The notes under the pieces are model-generated. The model made no database searches. It was given only the letters and a program-made list of their open reading frames with translations, and was not told the DNA's origin. The position numbers were made by a program, and so were the translations under genes. From Thermoplasmata archaeon (GTDB lineage: Archaea; Thermoplasmatota; Thermoplasmata; Thermoplasmatales; Thermoplasmataceae): a stretch of 43,578 nucleotides of DNA. This document shows, in pieces, positions 10,903 through 18,203 of the stretch (the first letter of the stretch is position 1; each line of letters begins with the position of its first letter). The stretch is from contig JAJZLU010000079.1 of assembly GCA_021850545.1 (NCBI GenBank), positions 1 through 43,578 on the forward strand, in the 5' to 3' direction.

Positions 10903-12063
10903 ATGGATAATGTTACAAGGGATCCCCTGGACCCTTTCCCATGGTATGAAGTAATGAGGTCACAACAGCCTGTCTTTTATGATGAGCAAAATGGCATATG
11001 GCATGTGTTCAGGTATGGTGACGTCAAGAAGGTCCTTTCAGACTACAATTCTTTCTCATCCTCCGCTGGCCGGGTCGAATCAAGCAGCAACCCAATTGGG
11101 GCAAGCATTATTTCAACTGACCCGCCGAGGCATACCCATCTTAGGTCGCTTGTAAACAAGGCATTCACGCCAAGGCGTGTCCAGGAACTTGCGCCACGGA
11201 TAAGGGCAATAGCCGAGGAGCTTGCTGAAAAGATTGTGGAGGATGGGGAATGCGATCTGGTTGAGGATTATTCTGGCCCGTTGCCTGTCATTGTAATTGC
11301 AGAACTTCTGGGAATACCTGCAGAGGACAGGAAGAAATTCAAGAAATGGTCTGATGACCTTATCTCTGGGACCAGCGAGGGCATGGACGAAACAAGTGAA
11401 GAATATTTCAATCCCCAGGTGGCCATGGCGAATTACTTCAGTGAAGTCATCAGGGTGAAGAGGGGAAATCCTGGCAACGATCTCATCAGTTCCCTGCTTG
11501 AAGCTGAAGTTGACGGCGAGAAACTTTCAGGGTTTGACCTCCTTGGGTTCTGTGTTTTGCTGCTTGTTGCAGGAAATGAGACAACAACCAACCTCATCAC
11601 AAATGCAATCCTTGCGCTTTCAAACAATGAAGAACAGTACAGGAGAACCATTCAGGATCCCTCACTTATCCCTGGGATGCTGGAGGAAGTCCTGAGATTC
11701 AGGTCACCTGTACAGTCAATGTTCAGGACTTGCGTCAGGAACACAGAGCTAGGAGGGAAAACCATCCACAGAGGAGATCCTGTGCTAGCATGGATTGGCT
11801 CAGCCAACCATGACCATGAGGAGTTCGCCAAGGCTGATGAATTTCTCATCGACAGAACCCCAAACAGGCACATAGCCTTCGGAGAAGGTGTCCATTTCTG
11901 CCTCGGTGCCCCTCTGGCAAGGCTAGAGGCAAGGATTGCGCTGGAAACCCTGATCTGGAAAGCTGGCAAGGTTATGGTAAAAAAGGATGCAAAACTGGAG
12001 CCACTATCAGGCGTTATTGTGTACGGAGTGAAACATCTGCCAGTCACAGTTTCAGGAAAATAA
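10903..12063 (+). CDS. Cytochrome P450 (CYP119/CYP231-like)
   Basis: A 386-residue soluble P450. The heme-thiolate loop is FGEGVHFCLG at 326-335 with C333 as axial ligand. The K-helix ExxR is EVLR at 262-265, and the I-helix oxygen-activation motif is AGNETT at 223-228. The substrate-recognition part includes TDPPRHTHLR (72-81). It resembles the thermoacidophile P450s CYP119 (Sulfolobus) and CYP231 (Picrophilus). The natural substrate is unknown and no dedicated ferredoxin or reductase gene is adjacent. A TATA-like GCATATAAGG lies at 10860-10869. Convergent with the cytochrome b operon. Confidence 0.95.
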   Translation: MDNVTRDPLDPFPWYEVMRSQQPVFYDEQNGIWHVFRYGDVKKVLSDYNSFSSSAGRVESSSNPIGASIISTDPPRHTHLRSLVNKAFTPRRVQELAPRIRAIAEELAEKIVEDGECDLVEDYSGPLPVIVIAELLGIPAEDRKKFKKWSDDLISGTSEGMDETSEEYFNPQVAMANYFSEVIRVKRGNPGNDLISSLLEAEVDGEKLSGFDLLGFCVLLLVAGNETTTNLITNAILALSNNEEQYRRTIQDPSLIPGMLEEVLRFRSPVQSMFRTCVRNTELGGKTIHRGDPVLAWIGSANHDHEEFAKADEFLIDRTPNRHIAFGEGVHFCLGAPLARLEARIALETLIWKAGKVMVKKDAKLEPLSGVIVYGVKHLPVTVSGK

Positions 12064-12139: not shown

Positions 12140-13768
12140 TTATTCTTCCAGGACCACTGACCTGTAAAGCTTAAGGTTGGCCGCTGCGATGAGGAACACT
12201 ACTCCAATTCCAATCCCGAATAGGGCTTCCTGGAAAGTAGAAGTTGCACTGAAAGGCTGGATCACAGTTACAATGATGAAGGCACCCAGTGTGAACGCAC
12301 CTCCAAGTGTATTCCTCATTCTTCTTGAGATGGGCCTAGAAGCTTTCCTTTCAGCGGCATGCTTTGAATCCCATATCGTGTAGGCCACAAGCGTGACAAG
12401 CAGTGCAACAACCATTGCCATAACCACAGAAGGGATGTAATACACTGGATTCCTGGTCCTGACCAGTGCATCAATAAGCATTCCCAGCCCGAATCCGGAA
12501 AGCCCGAGGAAACTCAGGGAAAGTGCGAGCTGAGTAAAGTGTCTGGCATCCATCCCGGATTTCTGGTAGTTCCTGGAAAGGTAATAGACCAGGGGGAGCA
12601 CTGTCAGTATTGGAAAAAGGAAGAATGCCAGAACCTGTGGAGTCGGTATGGCAACGCCGGGAGTGAGGGCTCCCCACGCAGAAAGGCTGATGAAGAATAT
12701 TACTCCTAGAATTGCGAGCCCAAATGTTATGGGCCTATCTGTGAGCTTAAGGCTCGGGGACCTGTCAAGATACGGGAGAAGAAGCAGGTACATAACCGGA
12801 ATTCCTGCAAATATCAGCGTGGCGTAAAACGGCCCGGGGCCAGCCATGAAACTGAAGTCCACTGCCTTATATACAAAGAGGAGGAACCACGGCGGATATG
12901 CCGGCACATTTTGTGCCAGCGGGCTTGAGGGCGATACCTGTGGGAATGGCGAGAAAAGGGCGGGAACTGCGGAGCCCAGTGCTGCAACCACTGATGTTAT
13001 TATCAGGATCGCAGCAAGAGTCAGCATTCCGATCTCAAGCATATAGAGCAGGTTATGCGGATACCACGGCTTGTATTCCGGCTTCTCCTCATCAATGGCC
13101 GGAGCCTTGTAATTGGCCTCCCTGTGGGATGGCATGATGGAATTGTATTCCGCCATTATGAAATGGCCAAGGAACAGTATCCCAATTCCAGCCGCCAGGA
13201 CAATGTGCCATCCGAGCATCCTGTGGAACAGGGAAATTGGCGTGCCGTCCCCAAAGAATATCAGTGACAGGTAGTTTCCAATAAACGGGATTCCCCTTGC
13301 AATGCCCGTGCCTACATCTGTCGCATCTGCTGACAGTACATCTCCGCTCATGGAATAGCCGAAAAATCCAATTCCGACTGTGAGGGCAAGCAGCAACACC
13401 CCTGTGAGCCACTGCATCATCCTTGGCTTTTTGTACGCTGCGACAAAGAGGTTCCTCAGCAGGTGAACGTAGACCAGGACAATCATCATATATGCGCCGT
13501 AGAGGTGCGTTGTAAGTATAAGCGAGCCAAATGGAACGCTGTTCACAAAGTTTTCCGTGCTTGTATATGCCTGTGAAGGCTGGTAGTACATCAGAATCAC
13601 AAGGCCTGTTATGACCTCATAAAGGAAAGCCACCATTACCATTGCCCCGGTCCAGTACCAGGCACCGCCTTTCTTTCTCATATAGTCGGGGACCCTTCTT
13701 GGGATTGGCCTTGGCTCGTTGAGCATCTTTATAATTATGGGTGTTTCTTTCTGAGTTTTTTCGCTCAT
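12140..13768 (-). CDS. Cytochrome b of a bc-type quinol oxidoreductase
   Basis: A 542-residue membrane protein. Two pairs of heme-ligating histidines, each 14 apart, are visible: H88/H102 in THLYGAYMMIVLVYVHLL and H188/H202 in WHIVLAAGIGILFLGHF. The quinol-oxidation motif PEWY is replaced by PPWF at about 292-295, a change typical of low-potential or archaeal forms. The N-terminal cytochrome b6-like part is followed by subunit-IV-like helices and an extended C-terminus with five to six more helices. It follows the Rieske gene by 12 bases, in one operon with the cupredoxin. Confidence 0.93.
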   Translation of the reverse strand: MSEKTQKETPIIIKMLNEPRPIPRRVPDYMRKKGGAWYWTGAMVMVAFLYEVITGLVILMYYQPSQAYTSTENFVNSVPFGSLILTTHLYGAYMMIVLVYVHLLRNLFVAAYKKPRMMQWLTGVLLLALTVGIGFFGYSMSGDVLSADATDVGTGIARGIPFIGNYLSLIFFGDGTPISLFHRMLGWHIVLAAGIGILFLGHFIMAEYNSIMPSHREANYKAPAIDEEKPEYKPWYPHNLLYMLEIGMLTLAAILIITSVVAALGSAVPALFSPFPQVSPSSPLAQNVPAYPPWFLLFVYKAVDFSFMAGPGPFYATLIFAGIPVMYLLLLPYLDRSPSLKLTDRPITFGLAILGVIFFISLSAWGALTPGVAIPTPQVLAFFLFPILTVLPLVYYLSRNYQKSGMDARHFTQLALSLSFLGLSGFGLGMLIDALVRTRNPVYYIPSVVMAMVVALLVTLVAYTIWDSKHAAERKASRPISRRMRNTLGGAFTLGAFIIVTVIQPFSATSTFQEALFGIGIGVVFLIAAANLKLYRSVVLEE

Positions 13769-13780
13769 TTTTCATTCACC

Positions 13781-14527
13781 TCAGGCAGACTGGGTAGAAA
13801 CCCCCGTCTGAGAATTGGAGGGAAGCGGATTCCCGCCGGACAGATCACTGCTGTGCCCATATATTGTAGGCCCAACCATGGAAACAGCATAATACTGGTC
13901 GCTGGCCTTGTCGTATTTGAGTGCAACATTGGGAAGCGGTTTCTGAGTAGGCCCTGTTACTATGCCGAATCCCTTCCCTGGATCGTATGTGCTGCCATGG
14001 CAGTTGCAATGGATTAGCCCTGTATTCTGCGAAGCCGATGGCCCATTGGGAATACTGGTTCCAGGCTTGTAAAAGTGAATGATTGGAGGGACGCACCCAA
14101 GGTGTTCGCATATTGCGCTTGATGCCACAACAGAACCGTATGGGCCAACTCCAGCCGGAGACTGGAATGACGAACCGGAAGCAGGGATGCTTACCTTCAC
14201 TGAACTGACCTTTACGTCATTCCCGCCGGCATCCCCCATCCTCAGGAGAAAGTTAGGTTCCCCCTGTAATGGATAGTCGAAACTCACGACCGCGCTGTCA
14301 TTTACCTTGAGATCGGAAGTGCTTATGGGCTTCCCTGAAGTGGAATCCACCAGTAGCAGCTGGGGAAACCCTGTTATGCCAGCACTCTTTGGTATGATGT
14401 TCTGGAGCGTTACCCTCAATGCGCCGGCAGAAGCCGCAGCGAATGCCGCAACTGTCATGTATTTCAGGAAAGTCCTTCTAGATGGGTCCTCTACTTCCAA
14501 TATTTCTCTATTTGTTTCCTCTGTCAT
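13781..14527 (-). CDS. Rieske iron-sulfur protein
   Basis: A 248-residue protein with an N-terminal membrane anchor preceded by SRRTFLKYM (residues 17-24), resembling a twin-arginine signal that would export the folded cluster protein. The 2Fe-2S ligands are C140 and H142 in CEHLGC and C174 and H177 in CNCHGS; C145 and C176 would form the stabilising disulfide. It passes electrons from quinol to the outside acceptor, presumably the cupredoxin encoded upstream. The gene lies between the cupredoxin and cytochrome b genes; no cytochrome c1 gene is present. Confidence 0.95.
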   Translation of the reverse strand: MTEETNREILEVEDPSRRTFLKYMTVAAFAAASAGALRVTLQNIIPKSAGITGFPQLLLVDSTSGKPISTSDLKVNDSAVVSFDYPLQGEPNFLLRMGDAGGNDVKVSSVKVSIPASGSSFQSPAGVGPYGSVVASSAICEHLGCVPPIIHFYKPGTSIPNGPSASQNTGLIHCNCHGSTYDPGKGFGIVTGPTQKPLPNVALKYDKASDQYYAVSMVGPTIYGHSSDLSGGNPLPSNSQTGVSTQSA

Positions 14528-14549: not shown

Positions 14550-14570
14550 TTACTGATCAAAGATCAGTAA
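14550..14570. terminator. Hairpin spanning the cupredoxin stop codon
   Basis: TTACTGATC-AAA-GATCAGTAA is a perfect 9-bp stem with a 3-base loop that includes the minus-strand stop codon (14564-14566). It lies in the operon between the cupredoxin and Rieske genes, so it may reduce downstream expression or protect the end of the upstream message. There is no strong T-run after it. Confidence 0.45.
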
Positions 14571-15829
14571 ACGTATACCGAACCGGTCATCCATCCAGGC
14601 GAAACCATGGCTCCCTCCATGCCGTTCGTCCCTGAACCGCAAGCGTCCCAGCATGCCCAGCTGAAAGTGCCAGTCTGGTTTATGTAGAATGATGTGGAAA
14701 CGGTTGAGCTGTCTGCAATTGGGATGTTGATGTTGCTGGAGCCGAGGGCTATAGTGAATGTGTGGGAAACCTGTGCAACTGGCACAGTAGATGCCCACTG
14801 GCCTCCGCTGACTGATATCCCCGTTGGGTTTGCCTGGCTTCCTGTCACAGTCGAATTAACCATGCTGTCGTTCAGGTAGAAGACCTTCCCTCCAACTGTG
14901 CCAGTTACGTTTGCATATGAGTCCTGTGCAAGCGGGCCCCATGTGTCGAAGTTGAATATGTTGGTTTCAATCTCAGTGTTGGCGGGGAGTGAAATGTTTG
15001 CGCTTGAGGAAAGTGCACCGTTGGACAGCACAATGAATGCTGGCTGGTGCTCACCAGCGCTGGCATTCCAAGGCTGGTGCGGGACCACGATGAGATTCAA
15101 GTTATATGGCTGTTTTGAAAGGCTCATGTTAGCAACGTTCACGTACCCTGTCATCCATCCAGGGGTCGACATTGCGCCTGTAAAGCCATTAGGATCGCCG
15201 CATCCTGCCTCGCACTGCCAGTAGTATCCTCCAGGCTGGTTGAGGATGAAAGTCGTCTGCTCTACTGTAGAAGCCATTATTGGAACATTTACAACGACGT
15301 TGTGTGTTGTGTTGCTGAATATTGTAAATGTGTGTGAAATGGAGTTGTTGTCCACATATGTTGTGGTAATCCCACCTGTAATGGCTATGCCTGATGCTGC
15401 TGTAGAAGTGGGGTCAATTGCATAAGACTGTATGAGTGTCTCGTTGTAAACAGACACCTGGTCGTTGTAGGTTCCGACCACCTTGCTGTAAGTGCTGTTG
15501 GTGGCGGCAGCTCCATCGTCATAATTCCTTATGGTCAGCTGTATTGGAACATTGGCTGGCAGTTTTATGTTCTCAGAAGACAGAAGGGTGTTATTCTGCA
15601 GCACAAAGAAGGCTGGCTGCTGGCCCGCGGTTGCGTTGAAGTAATTCTGGGTAGTTATTACAAGTGTCAACTGGTAAGGCTGCACAGTTGTGGCCTGAGT
15701 ACTGCTGGATCCAGGGCTGGATGGGCTCGAGGGTGCTGCGGCCACACTATCGTGGTATGCTACCCCTATTCCAATTCCGCCAAGAACAATTATAGCCGTG
15801 ATGGCTGCGTAGAAAATCCTCTCATTCAT
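14564..15829 (-). CDS. Exported two-domain cupredoxin-like protein
   Basis: A 421-residue protein with one N-terminal anchor (residues 5-28), a Ser/Pro linker, and two homologous domains at about 48-232 and 238-421. Each begins QPY-L-L and ends with a metal-site-like loop: H166 in SHTFTI, then C206-x3-C210 and M220; and H356, C393-x3-C397, M408. The spacing resembles CuA of cytochrome oxidase subunit II, but the histidine between the second Cys and the Met is absent in both domains. Many NxS/T sites suggest glycosylation outside the cell. As first gene of the Rieske/cytochrome b operon it is a candidate electron acceptor or structural partner. I chose the ATG at 15829, where the signal anchor begins. 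Confidence 0.75.
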   Translation of the reverse strand: MNERIFYAAITAIIVLGGIGIGVAYHDSVAAAPSSPSSPGSSSTQATTVQPYQLTLVITTQNYFNATAGQQPAFFVLQNNTLLSSENIKLPANVPIQLTIRNYDDGAAATNSTYSKVVGTYNDQVSVYNETLIQSYAIDPTSTAASGIAITGGITTTYVDNNSISHTFTIFSNTTHNVVVNVPIMASTVEQTTFILNQPGGYYWQCEAGCGDPNGFTGAMSTPGWMTGYVNVANMSLSKQPYNLNLIVVPHQPWNASAGEHQPAFIVLSNGALSSSANISLPANTEIETNIFNFDTWGPLAQDSYANVTGTVGGKVFYLNDSMVNSTVTGSQANPTGISVSGGQWASTVPVAQVSHTFTIALGSSNINIPIADSSTVSTSFYINQTGTFSWACWDACGSGTNGMEGAMVSPGWMTGSVYVY

Positions 15830-15974
15830 CTTTATTGTCCTCCCACTAGTTGGTCGTACATTTACTAGGAAAAAATGTGGTTTAACAAATAGCACATACC
15901 TAAAATGTTAAGGTATGAATTGGCCCAAGTAGTAAAAAGAGGTTTCCAGAGGCTGATTAATAGGCTGATTTTCT

Positions 15975-16172: not shown

Positions 16173-18203
16173 TCATACGCGGGCCACGTAGACCCCGTCA
16201 TTTTCATACATGGATGTATAAACAACATAACCGTCAGTGCTTGCGAGCGGAGAATATACACTATGCGGGTCAGAAATAAGGGCGCCATATTGTGTGTAAT
16301 TGAGTGAAAAGTTGTTGAAGTAGGACGAAATAATCTGGCCTGTGGTGAGATTGAGTATGTCGAAACTCTGTGAGTATGATTTGTTGACTGGGAACTCATA
16401 GGCTACACTGGAACCGAATAGGGCTTCATTATTTCCTAGAAGTAATGGGGAAAATGTACTGCTGTTCATTGGGTGCGGAATAGGCTGGCTCCAGGAAACC
16501 CGACCATCGCTATTGACATAAACAGCGTTTGACCCATTGTATCCAAGGAAGCCACCATCATAACTCAATAAAGCGCTAACGGAGGTGAGGTTGACCGTTG
16601 CAGATTTCACGATTGCTCCAGTTGTTGTGTTCACTTCCATTATATCCTGTCCACCCGAGTTATTTCCGATTGTGTAGTATACATTGGAACCCTGCTGTTC
16701 AAAATTGCTGCCATAGCTGAGATGGACAGTGAAGCCCCCGAAAGACTTGTTGAGAAGTACCTTGCCAGTAGGAATCTGCAGAAAAAGCCTGTAATTCAGG
16801 TTTTGGCCGTTTGAGTTGTCAATAAACTCGATAGCGGCATAATAAAGATTGTTTGTTAATGAGCCAAATTCCCACGCAGATAGGGCATATTTGCTGTTTG
16901 AAGTCGTGATGTTGGCAGCCACCCTCACTGTTTCTTTACTGGCATCAATATATGCTACATGTACCATGCCAGGAGATATCTGACCGTAAACCACAGAGAT
17001 GTACGCAGAATCTGGTTCGTAGGAGTAGTAGAAAACATCGTTGGAGCCGTTGAACGTAAAGGTCCTGTTAGCTTCATATGATAGGTCGCCTGTTGAAAAG
17101 TTGAAACCTAATGTCTGCACATTTATGCTTGAGGATGTCCCTCCAAGTTCCTGGGTGATATATGTTGCATAGATTGCTGTACTGTTAGCAAAAAGCAACT
17201 GGACATGTGCATCGGGCAATACTGATGAAATTCCATAATCACCATATGGAACATACAGAGTTACATTCTGGCTAATAAAGGAAATATAGCCGTACTGGAG
17301 GTTAAGGCCTATAACCTGTACGCACTCATACCTTGGGTATGAGCCAAGGATGCTATTTATTGGGGATTCGGATGCGACAAAGGCAAAAATTGTGTTGTTT
17401 TGGACCAGGAATTGGGCATATTGCCGCCCAGTGAGATTCCATTGGGATGGAAGCAACCCCGAAGAATTGAACAAGTGAGCCAAGTCAGATACCATTTCGC
17501 TGTACTGTGCATCTGGATTTTGGCCATAGTTGGTTGCATAATACTTCACCCCAAGCGCAAAGAATGACCTTAATGCACTTCTCAGATAAAAATTGCTGAA
17601 GTTTTCAATGTTAACTAGAAGATGTGATGTTCCCGGCCCCTCTGCATTGCGGGTGTTTATAAAATTGGCCCATGATGAATAATTTGGCTCGCTCAGAAGG
17701 TAAAATGTATTAACTTCACCACTCAGAGTGCCTTTGAAACTGTAATTTGCCACCACAATGCCCCTGCCATTCTCGATCCTCTGAACCAGGTGCCTTAGGT
17801 TTAACGATCTATATCCTGCCGGGTTTCCATTGAGAAGAAGCCCATCAAATCCTAGGTCCGCAATAACCTGCACCTGTGAGGCGTCCAGGCTTTCATTCAC
17901 TGAATATAGCACAGATACATTTGCCCTTTCAAGAGACCTGATATTCAGCAGTGTCTCATTGTTTGGGTTAGCCCCTGAGTAAATGACTATGGCAATATTG
18001 TCAGGAATAGAAGTAAAATTGCTGGATGCATTTGATGACTGATTGTAGCTCATAAAATCACCCACCTTCTGTGGCACTGCAGCATCGCTGTTGAAATCAA
18101 TGGGAGAATTTACCATAACCCCACTCTGTATATATTGGTACAACACAATTGAGGACGGGACTGCTACAATGACTGCTAGAAGGATAGCAATTCCTTTTCG
18201 CAT
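16173..18203 (-). CDS. Large exported protein of unknown function (676 aa)
   Basis: The N-terminus MRKGIAILLAVIVAVPSSIVLYQY is a signal peptide or membrane anchor. The rest is extracellular in character, rich in Asn/Ser/Tyr with many N-glycosylation sites. Residues about 70-240 alternate strands and helices (IAIVIYSGANPN, VSVLYSVNESL, DLGFDGLLLNGNPAGY, GRGIVVANYS), hinting at a barrel-like or glycoside-hydrolase-like fold. The C-terminal 350 residues carry repeated short strands (LSAWEFGSL, VNTTTGAIVKSA, LNLTTGQIISS) like a beta-propeller. No catalytic motif could be assigned. It precedes the cupredoxin operon on the same strand; a role at the cell surface is inference. Confidence 0.7.
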   Translation of the reverse strand: MRKGIAILLAVIVAVPSSIVLYQYIQSGVMVNSPIDFNSDAAVPQKVGDFMSYNQSSNASSNFTSIPDNIAIVIYSGANPNNETLLNIRSLERANVSVLYSVNESLDASQVQVIADLGFDGLLLNGNPAGYRSLNLRHLVQRIENGRGIVVANYSFKGTLSGEVNTFYLLSEPNYSSWANFINTRNAEGPGTSHLLVNIENFSNFYLRSALRSFFALGVKYYATNYGQNPDAQYSEMVSDLAHLFNSSGLLPSQWNLTGRQYAQFLVQNNTIFAFVASESPINSILGSYPRYECVQVIGLNLQYGYISFISQNVTLYVPYGDYGISSVLPDAHVQLLFANSTAIYATYITQELGGTSSSINVQTLGFNFSTGDLSYEANRTFTFNGSNDVFYYSYEPDSAYISVVYGQISPGMVHVAYIDASKETVRVAANITTSNSKYALSAWEFGSLTNNLYYAAIEFIDNSNGQNLNYRLFLQIPTGKVLLNKSFGGFTVHLSYGSNFEQQGSNVYYTIGNNSGGQDIMEVNTTTGAIVKSATVNLTSVSALLSYDGGFLGYNGSNAVYVNSDGRVSWSQPIPHPMNSSTFSPLLLGNNEALFGSSVAYEFPVNKSYSQSFDILNLTTGQIISSYFNNFSLNYTQYGALISDPHSVYSPLASTDGYVVYTSMYENDGVYVARV

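Follow-up and report, generated by a model that had tools for sequence, protein, structure and literature searches.

CuA-like cupredoxins without the second CuA histidine as candidate electron acceptors of archaeal bc complexes that lack cytochrome c1

We have identified a large and unnamed family of cupredoxins that, judged by their sequences, are homologues of the CuA domain of cytochrome oxidase subunit II (COX2) but depart from the CuA ligand set. We propose, with a probability of roughly 0.6, that these proteins carry a CuA-derived copper centre in which the second His is replaced by Met, and that they are the outer electron acceptor of a bc complex without cytochrome c1. For Thermoplasmatales that have neither cytochrome c nor sulfocyanin/rusticyanin, the route of electrons between complexes III and IV has been called unpredictable, as in Cuniculiplasma strain PM4 (PMC5155288). 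The family offers a concrete, testable candidate for that carrier. A His-to-Met change of CuA has so far been approached through protein engineering; if the family binds copper, it would be a natural variant of this kind and likely an acid adaptation of a central respiratory cofactor. "Cupredoxin COX2 family proteins" have already been noted on a Cuniculiplasma island (PMC5155288), and the position upstream of Rieske is already known for plastocyanin-like proteins of another Thermoplasmata order (PMC9038741). No description of the altered ligand set, of how widely it occurs or of its link with bc genes was found in the open-licence PMC literature on His-to-Met CuA variants and low-pH CuA.

The window, that is, the whole stretch of 43,578 nucleotides from a Thermoplasmata archaeon that was analysed, carries the founding member at 14564..15829 on the minus strand. 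It is a single ORF with homologues that encodes 421 aa from an ATG at 15829, with an alternative in-frame GTG start possible at 15895. An earlier note on this DNA had claimed one gene for a tandem cupredoxin, and AlphaFold2 models of domain 1 and of the tandem, both built without metal, agree with this. Domain 1 (residues 46-235; 15125..15694, minus strand) was delimited from AlphaFold2, a fold search and a profile match to CuA structures, and domain 2 (residues 236-421; 14567..15124, minus strand) from the family alignment and the tandem model. Domain 1 alone was modelled from a 60-row alignment with a pLDDT of 93.7 and a pTM of 0.89, and the full tandem with a pLDDT of 81.6 and a pTM of 0.82. 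Foldseek matches comprised multicopper oxidases, CuNIR and rusticyanin, which amounts to a generic cupredoxin fold. The N-terminal hydrophobic segment, residues 3-29 (FYAAITAIIVLGGIGIGVAY; 15743..15823, minus strand), is modelled as a helix with low pLDDT and is probably a membrane anchor that would place both domains outside the cell.

Within the cupredoxins, the closest relationship is to CuA. The top PDB matches of the family profile were the CuA proteins 2lln, 2cua and other T. thermophilus COX2 structures (E ~1e-9), followed by N2O reductase and nitrosocyanin; rusticyanin was absent from the best 60 PDB rows, all with E<=0.11. The comparison with sulfocyanin and COX2 families that the earlier note had advised gave a profile-profile probability of 94-95 for COX2 of the same genomes, against 33 or less for sulfocyanin. 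The window protein alone reached 21.2 bits against Pfam COX2, where the cut-off is 22, and for the 60 domains scanned neither Pfam nor NCBIfam had a dedicated model, the matches being weak and to models for COX2, N2O reductase and cupredoxins. Membership of the sulfocyanin/rusticyanin group was considered and rejected: a type 1 site has two His, one Cys and one Met, whereas each site of the window protein has a single His with two Cys; the protein matched neither sulfocyanin nor rusticyanin models, and the profile similarity is very weak. The only TIGR03094 match in its own genome is a different gene on contig C24, far below the cut-off.

The CuA ligand motif is H-x34-C-x3-C-x3-H-x2-M (PMC6189053). 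The family departs from it in that the second His is missing and the Cys pair leads instead into C-x3-C-x(3-14)-M-x5-M, mostly with x10; the His and the first Cys are usually x34, x36 or x37 apart, and C-x3-C is unchanged from CuA. In domain 1 of the window protein, the counterpart of the first CuA His is H166 (15332..15334, minus strand), invariant in 35 full-length relatives and in a 60-domain alignment, and the counterpart of the CuA Cys pair is C206-x3-C210 (15200..15214, minus strand), invariant in both alignments. These are followed by M220-x5-M226 (15152..15172, minus strand), recognised from family conservation and from the profile alignment with COX2. M226 aligns with the CuA Met in the global profile alignment, which sets PGWM-x-G opposite Met-x-G of COX2 CuA, and M220 is an extra Met that we propose as the substitute for the second CuA His. 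Domain 2 has the equivalent H356 (14762..14764), C393-x3-C397 (14639..14653) and M408-x5-M414 (14588..14608), all on the minus strand and placed by the family alignment. The four residues C206, C210, C393 and C397 are the sole Cys of the protein, and neither half has a His in the stretch from the second Cys to the final strand. An upstream His and C-x3-C in each half, with the second His replaced, had been read from the DNA before and are confirmed here. The accompanying claim of a Met in CuA-like order stands only in so far as a conserved Met pair exists: the CuA-spaced position (C2+7) holds a Met in domain 2 only, M404 in SGTNGM, and this Met does not belong to the conserved pair. The conserved ones sit in GAM and PGWM (M220/M226 and M408/M414), and the loop from the second Cys to PGWM exceeds that of CuA by about 9 residues. 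As a control, the second CuA His was found in 29/29 full-length COX2 proteins of the same genomes, so its loss is specific to the CuA-like family.

Conservation of the site was assessed in two sets of homologues, one from related genomes (38/61 positive) collected without selecting for the motif, and one of 62 loci from GTDB species genomes, for which the scan used two peptide patterns around the motif. Residues invariant in the 35 full-length relatives include H166, W204, C206, C210, G211, M220, G224, W225, M226 and G228. The 60-domain alignment shows no exception for the His, either Cys or the last Met, and at least 90% of its domains keep the other Met. His plus C-x3-C is kept in 85/86 non-redundant domains (read from the sequences; six rows with overlapping C...C[GNDSA] matches all have C-x3-C), and M-x5-M-x-G in 83/86. 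Many of these domains are only 30-45% identical to the window protein, so the conservation of the site is not due to chance. The spacing from the second Cys to the first Met ranges from 3 to 14, mostly 10, and depends on the subfamily, with a few extremes coming from ambiguously matched rows, while the two Mets keep their constant x5 spacing as the loop varies. The sole exception of the 86, L079:4252-4848 (G038), has neither the His (DTFS) nor the first Cys (WGDMCNCG), a joint loss that fits one shared metal site. Homologues without conserved Cys and Met had been named beforehand as evidence against the idea; when sought, the Cys, the His and the Met pair proved nearly invariant. Members appear to come chiefly from microbes of acid environments, judged by the MAG and sample codes in record titles.

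The tandem arrangement, initially considered the key feature, was downgraded. Single-domain genes are the majority of homologues and carry the same site; two-domain members occur in only seven genomes, every one of them bc-adjacent. In the domain tree, window domains 1 and 2 each cluster separately with the corresponding domains of two other genomes (G001 and G005). The duplication is thus not essential, and the argument from conservation rests on the whole family. It had been claimed that a site kept through duplication is probably functional; the site is indeed in both halves, but support for function comes from its conservation throughout the family. By the alignments, the altered ligand set is a trait of the whole family rather than of the duplicated window protein. 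Two variants were observed alongside: a short-loop subfamily (L038:4506-5114, L083, L078, L064 and L065) has three Cys (C-x-C-x-C-G) and M-x5-M, e.g. WGCMCQCGIYSMDASGSM, and in one member, L076:4086-4682 (G018), a His lies close to the CuA position (CGGHGNPM) together with further Mets, so that this member is possibly an intermediate.

The window gene heads an operon on the minus strand in the order cupredoxin, Rieske, cytochrome b, with gaps of 36 and 12 bp. The Rieske 2Fe-2S protein (13781..14527, minus strand) is SoxL2-like with a TAT-type N terminus and was assigned from a profile match below the equivalog cut-off; cytochrome b (12140..13768, minus strand) is SoxC-like, with 412.8 bits against NF041076 (cut-off 740). 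SoxC/SoxL2-type partners of a bc complex are thus together in one operon. A COX2 role would imply a gene encoded with COX1, but the window gene belongs to a bc operon, and the canonical COX2 of the genome adjoins COX1 on contig C80. The same-strand order CuA-like, Rieske, cytochrome b was found at 22 loci in 21 related genomes, two of them in the window's own genome. It recurs in Thaumarchaeota MAGs, where the Rieske and cytochrome b proteins encoded beside the family gene are only 30-36% identical to those of the window: five loci (L119-L121, L126 and L137) show the window gene order, and in L125 the family gene follows cytochrome b. Many other members are lone genes outside any bc operon. 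In one acid-site actinobacterial MAG that was examined, two adjacent CuA-like genes are followed by genes for a 4Fe-4S protein and an NrfD-type membrane protein (L149:5722-9817), a set that represents another quinone-linked module; a short-loop variant, WYCSIPCGSWVMSNAGYMKG, lies near this tandem, and similar tandem and short-loop genes occur in L138 and L148. The second operon copy of the window's own genome lies at a contig edge (G000:C71:2-2821, L039), with CuA-like, Rieske and cytochrome b proteins 77%, 82% and 82% identical, and is either a strain variant or a recent duplication. Upstream of the window operon, 16173-18203 (minus strand) encodes a 676-aa protein with no Pfam match at E 0.01, and an apparent cytochrome P450 gene, read by eye at 10903-12063 (plus strand), is convergent with the cytochrome b gene.

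The absence of cytochrome c1 from the operon, pointed out in the earlier note, extends to the genomes: no c-type cytochrome was detected with PF13442 in 61 genomes, with control genomes matching as expected, nor with PF00034 in the window's own genome. On another contig of this genome, a canonical COX2 clusters with COX1 and a plastocyanin-like cupredoxin. The plastocyanin-like gene (L036:6913-7623; WCSVHYTTM) directly follows COX1; such a gene adjoins COX1 in many relatives and is absent from the four sulfocyanin genomes described below and from G010 and G028. The family is present in 18 of the 22 COX1-positive genomes with a completeness of at least 90%, and the four without it (G014, G022, G023 and G030) are exactly the four with an above-cut-off sulfocyanin. 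Such a coincidence would have a chance of 1/7315 if the genomes were independent, which they are not, as two share a genus. The four sulfocyanin genomes have only distant Rieske matches and may be one clade, so the complementarity may reflect few events. One genome (G013) has the family together with a weak sulfocyanin match and two COX1 types, and in another (G017) a single-domain member lies ~1 kb from a true rusticyanin-type gene. COX1 is missing from two near-complete genomes, G010 (L070) and G028 (L055/L082), in which the family and bc genes are present; these two must use another acceptor, so that the acceptor cannot in every case be a haem-copper oxidase. In G010, genes for a 487-aa uncharacterised protein and a NosR/CcoG-like polyferredoxin come after the CuA-like gene; nearby, next to TatA/TatC-like genes, lies a second, distant Rieske/cytochrome b pair.

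Based on these observations, we hypothesize that the window protein is a membrane-anchored carrier on the outer cell face with two CuA-derived cupredoxin domains. Copper in each domain, mononuclear or binuclear, would have as ligands one His, the two thiolates of C-x3-C and either one or two Mets, of which M226/M414 would replace the axial Met of CuA and M220/M408, in the expanded loop, the second CuA His. The carrier would accept electrons from the Rieske/cytochrome b complex encoded downstream, in substitution of cytochrome c1, and pass them on to the oxidase, probably via the plastocyanin-like cupredoxin whose gene adjoins COX1, or straight to the canonical CuA of COX2. As COX2, COX1 and plastocyanin-like genes are present in the window's own genome, a chain from quinol through Rieske, the tandem cupredoxin and the plastocyanin-like protein to CuA can be drawn. 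The tandem might provide two sites in series or a doubled capacity, neither of which would be required. Of the two His ligands in CuA, the second is more exposed, and when it becomes protonated at low pH in engineered CuA azurin, the site is disrupted. Since a thioether cannot be protonated, a Met in its place would make the site acid-proof, so that it would not be lost in very acid surroundings, and would raise its potential. The strongest consideration against this rationale, judging from alignments, comes from COX2: exposed to the same acidic surroundings, it retains its second His, at a site that faces the oxidase, so acid alone does not force the change. That the protein may be the outer electron carrier had been suggested from the window alone; the gene order at 22 loci, its recurrence in Thaumarchaeota, the absence of cytochrome c and the complementarity with sulfocyanin speak for it, but as a trait of the family and not of the duplicated protein. 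More tentatively, and at somewhat less than even odds, the family could constitute a distinct class of copper centre (H, C-x3-C, M-x5-M) that acts as a general acceptor of quinol-oxidising complexes in acidophilic archaea and bacteria, replacing cytochrome c.

Several other functions were weighed against an electron-accepting copper centre. The ligands of Cu in Sco are C-x3-C and a distal His, and the ligand set of the family resembles them; two thioethers would also favour Cu(I), and several paralogues are lone genes. The cluster could belong to a copper chaperone or buffer with a Sco- or PCuAC-like function, binding Cu(I) to supply CuA or to confer resistance and not to transfer electrons. 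Sco chemistry has been reviewed (PMC6696091), and COX2-family cupredoxins are annotated on a metal-related genomic island of Cuniculiplasma (PMC5155288). However, Sco combines its ligands with a thioredoxin fold, and the fold here is that of a cupredoxin; the conserved partners at the 22 same-strand loci are bc genes, which have no need of copper, and not cox genes, and in other phyla the family is recruited near quinol-oxidising modules. We therefore consider a chaperone unlikely. An entry point for outside electrons, e.g. from Fe(II) oxidation, that feeds the bc complex or the oxidase as proposed for rusticyanin/sulfocyanin, appears quite unlikely. Many members do come from MAGs with codes suggesting acid mine drainage, these MAGs include bacterial groups known for iron oxidation, and by occurrence the family replaces sulfocyanin, but in cultured Thermoplasmatales such cupredoxins do not track iron oxidation (PMC5155288, PMC10354927).

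A very unlikely alternative is a degenerate COX2-like domain that binds no metal; its Cys pair would form a structural disulfide, and the domain would mediate attachment to the bc complex. An extracytoplasmic C-x3-C could oxidise, the two invariant Cys of PmoD were disulfide-linked in one crystal form (PMC6189053), and a metal-free structure model is compatible with such a bond. It would leave unexplained the near-invariant His166, the near-invariant Met pair at fixed spacing and the fact that L079 has lost His and Cys together. A two-domain multicopper oxidase or NirK-type enzyme was suggested by Foldseek, as CuNIR and laccases top the list for the tandem. This reading is hardly credible and was rejected, since TM-scores are low (0.17-0.22 by query), a single domain also matches rusticyanin, and the 421 aa contain only six His, none in H-x-H clusters and none forming the inter-domain clusters that define such enzymes.

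Compared with known systems, the family is most similar to the CuA domain of COX2 (PF00116; ba3-type T. thermophilus 2cua), with which it shares the cupredoxin fold, the first His, C-x3-C followed by G, and Met-x-G before the last strand. It differs in having no second His and an extra invariant Met, in a distance from the second Cys to the Met of Met-x-G of 15-16 residues as opposed to 7 in COX2 CuA, and in not being encoded together with COX1. Sulfocyanin (SoxE, TIGR03094) and rusticyanin (TIGR03095) are likewise cupredoxin electron carriers of acidophiles, and SoxE partners a cytochrome b/Rieske pair, with an occurrence complementary to that of the family here; their type 1 site, however, has one Cys and two His, and profile similarity to the family is very weak. 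In Ca. Angelarchaeales, which belong to another Thermoplasmata order, a plastocyanin-like protein is encoded upstream of Rieske in complex III loci (PMC9038741). This protein shares with the family its position and the absence of cytochrome c, but is described as a one-domain blue copper protein and not as a C-x3-C CuA derivative (PMC9038741). AcoP, another unusual cupredoxin from the respiration of an acidophile, also has a long C-terminal loop, but its green mononuclear site is formed by a single Cys, two His and a Met (PMC4059628). PmoD/AmoD provide a precedent for a CuA-type centre with non-canonical ligands in a cupredoxin, although these ligands lie elsewhere in the fold, in a site formed by a homodimer with the motif Cx7MxHxnC (PMC6189053).
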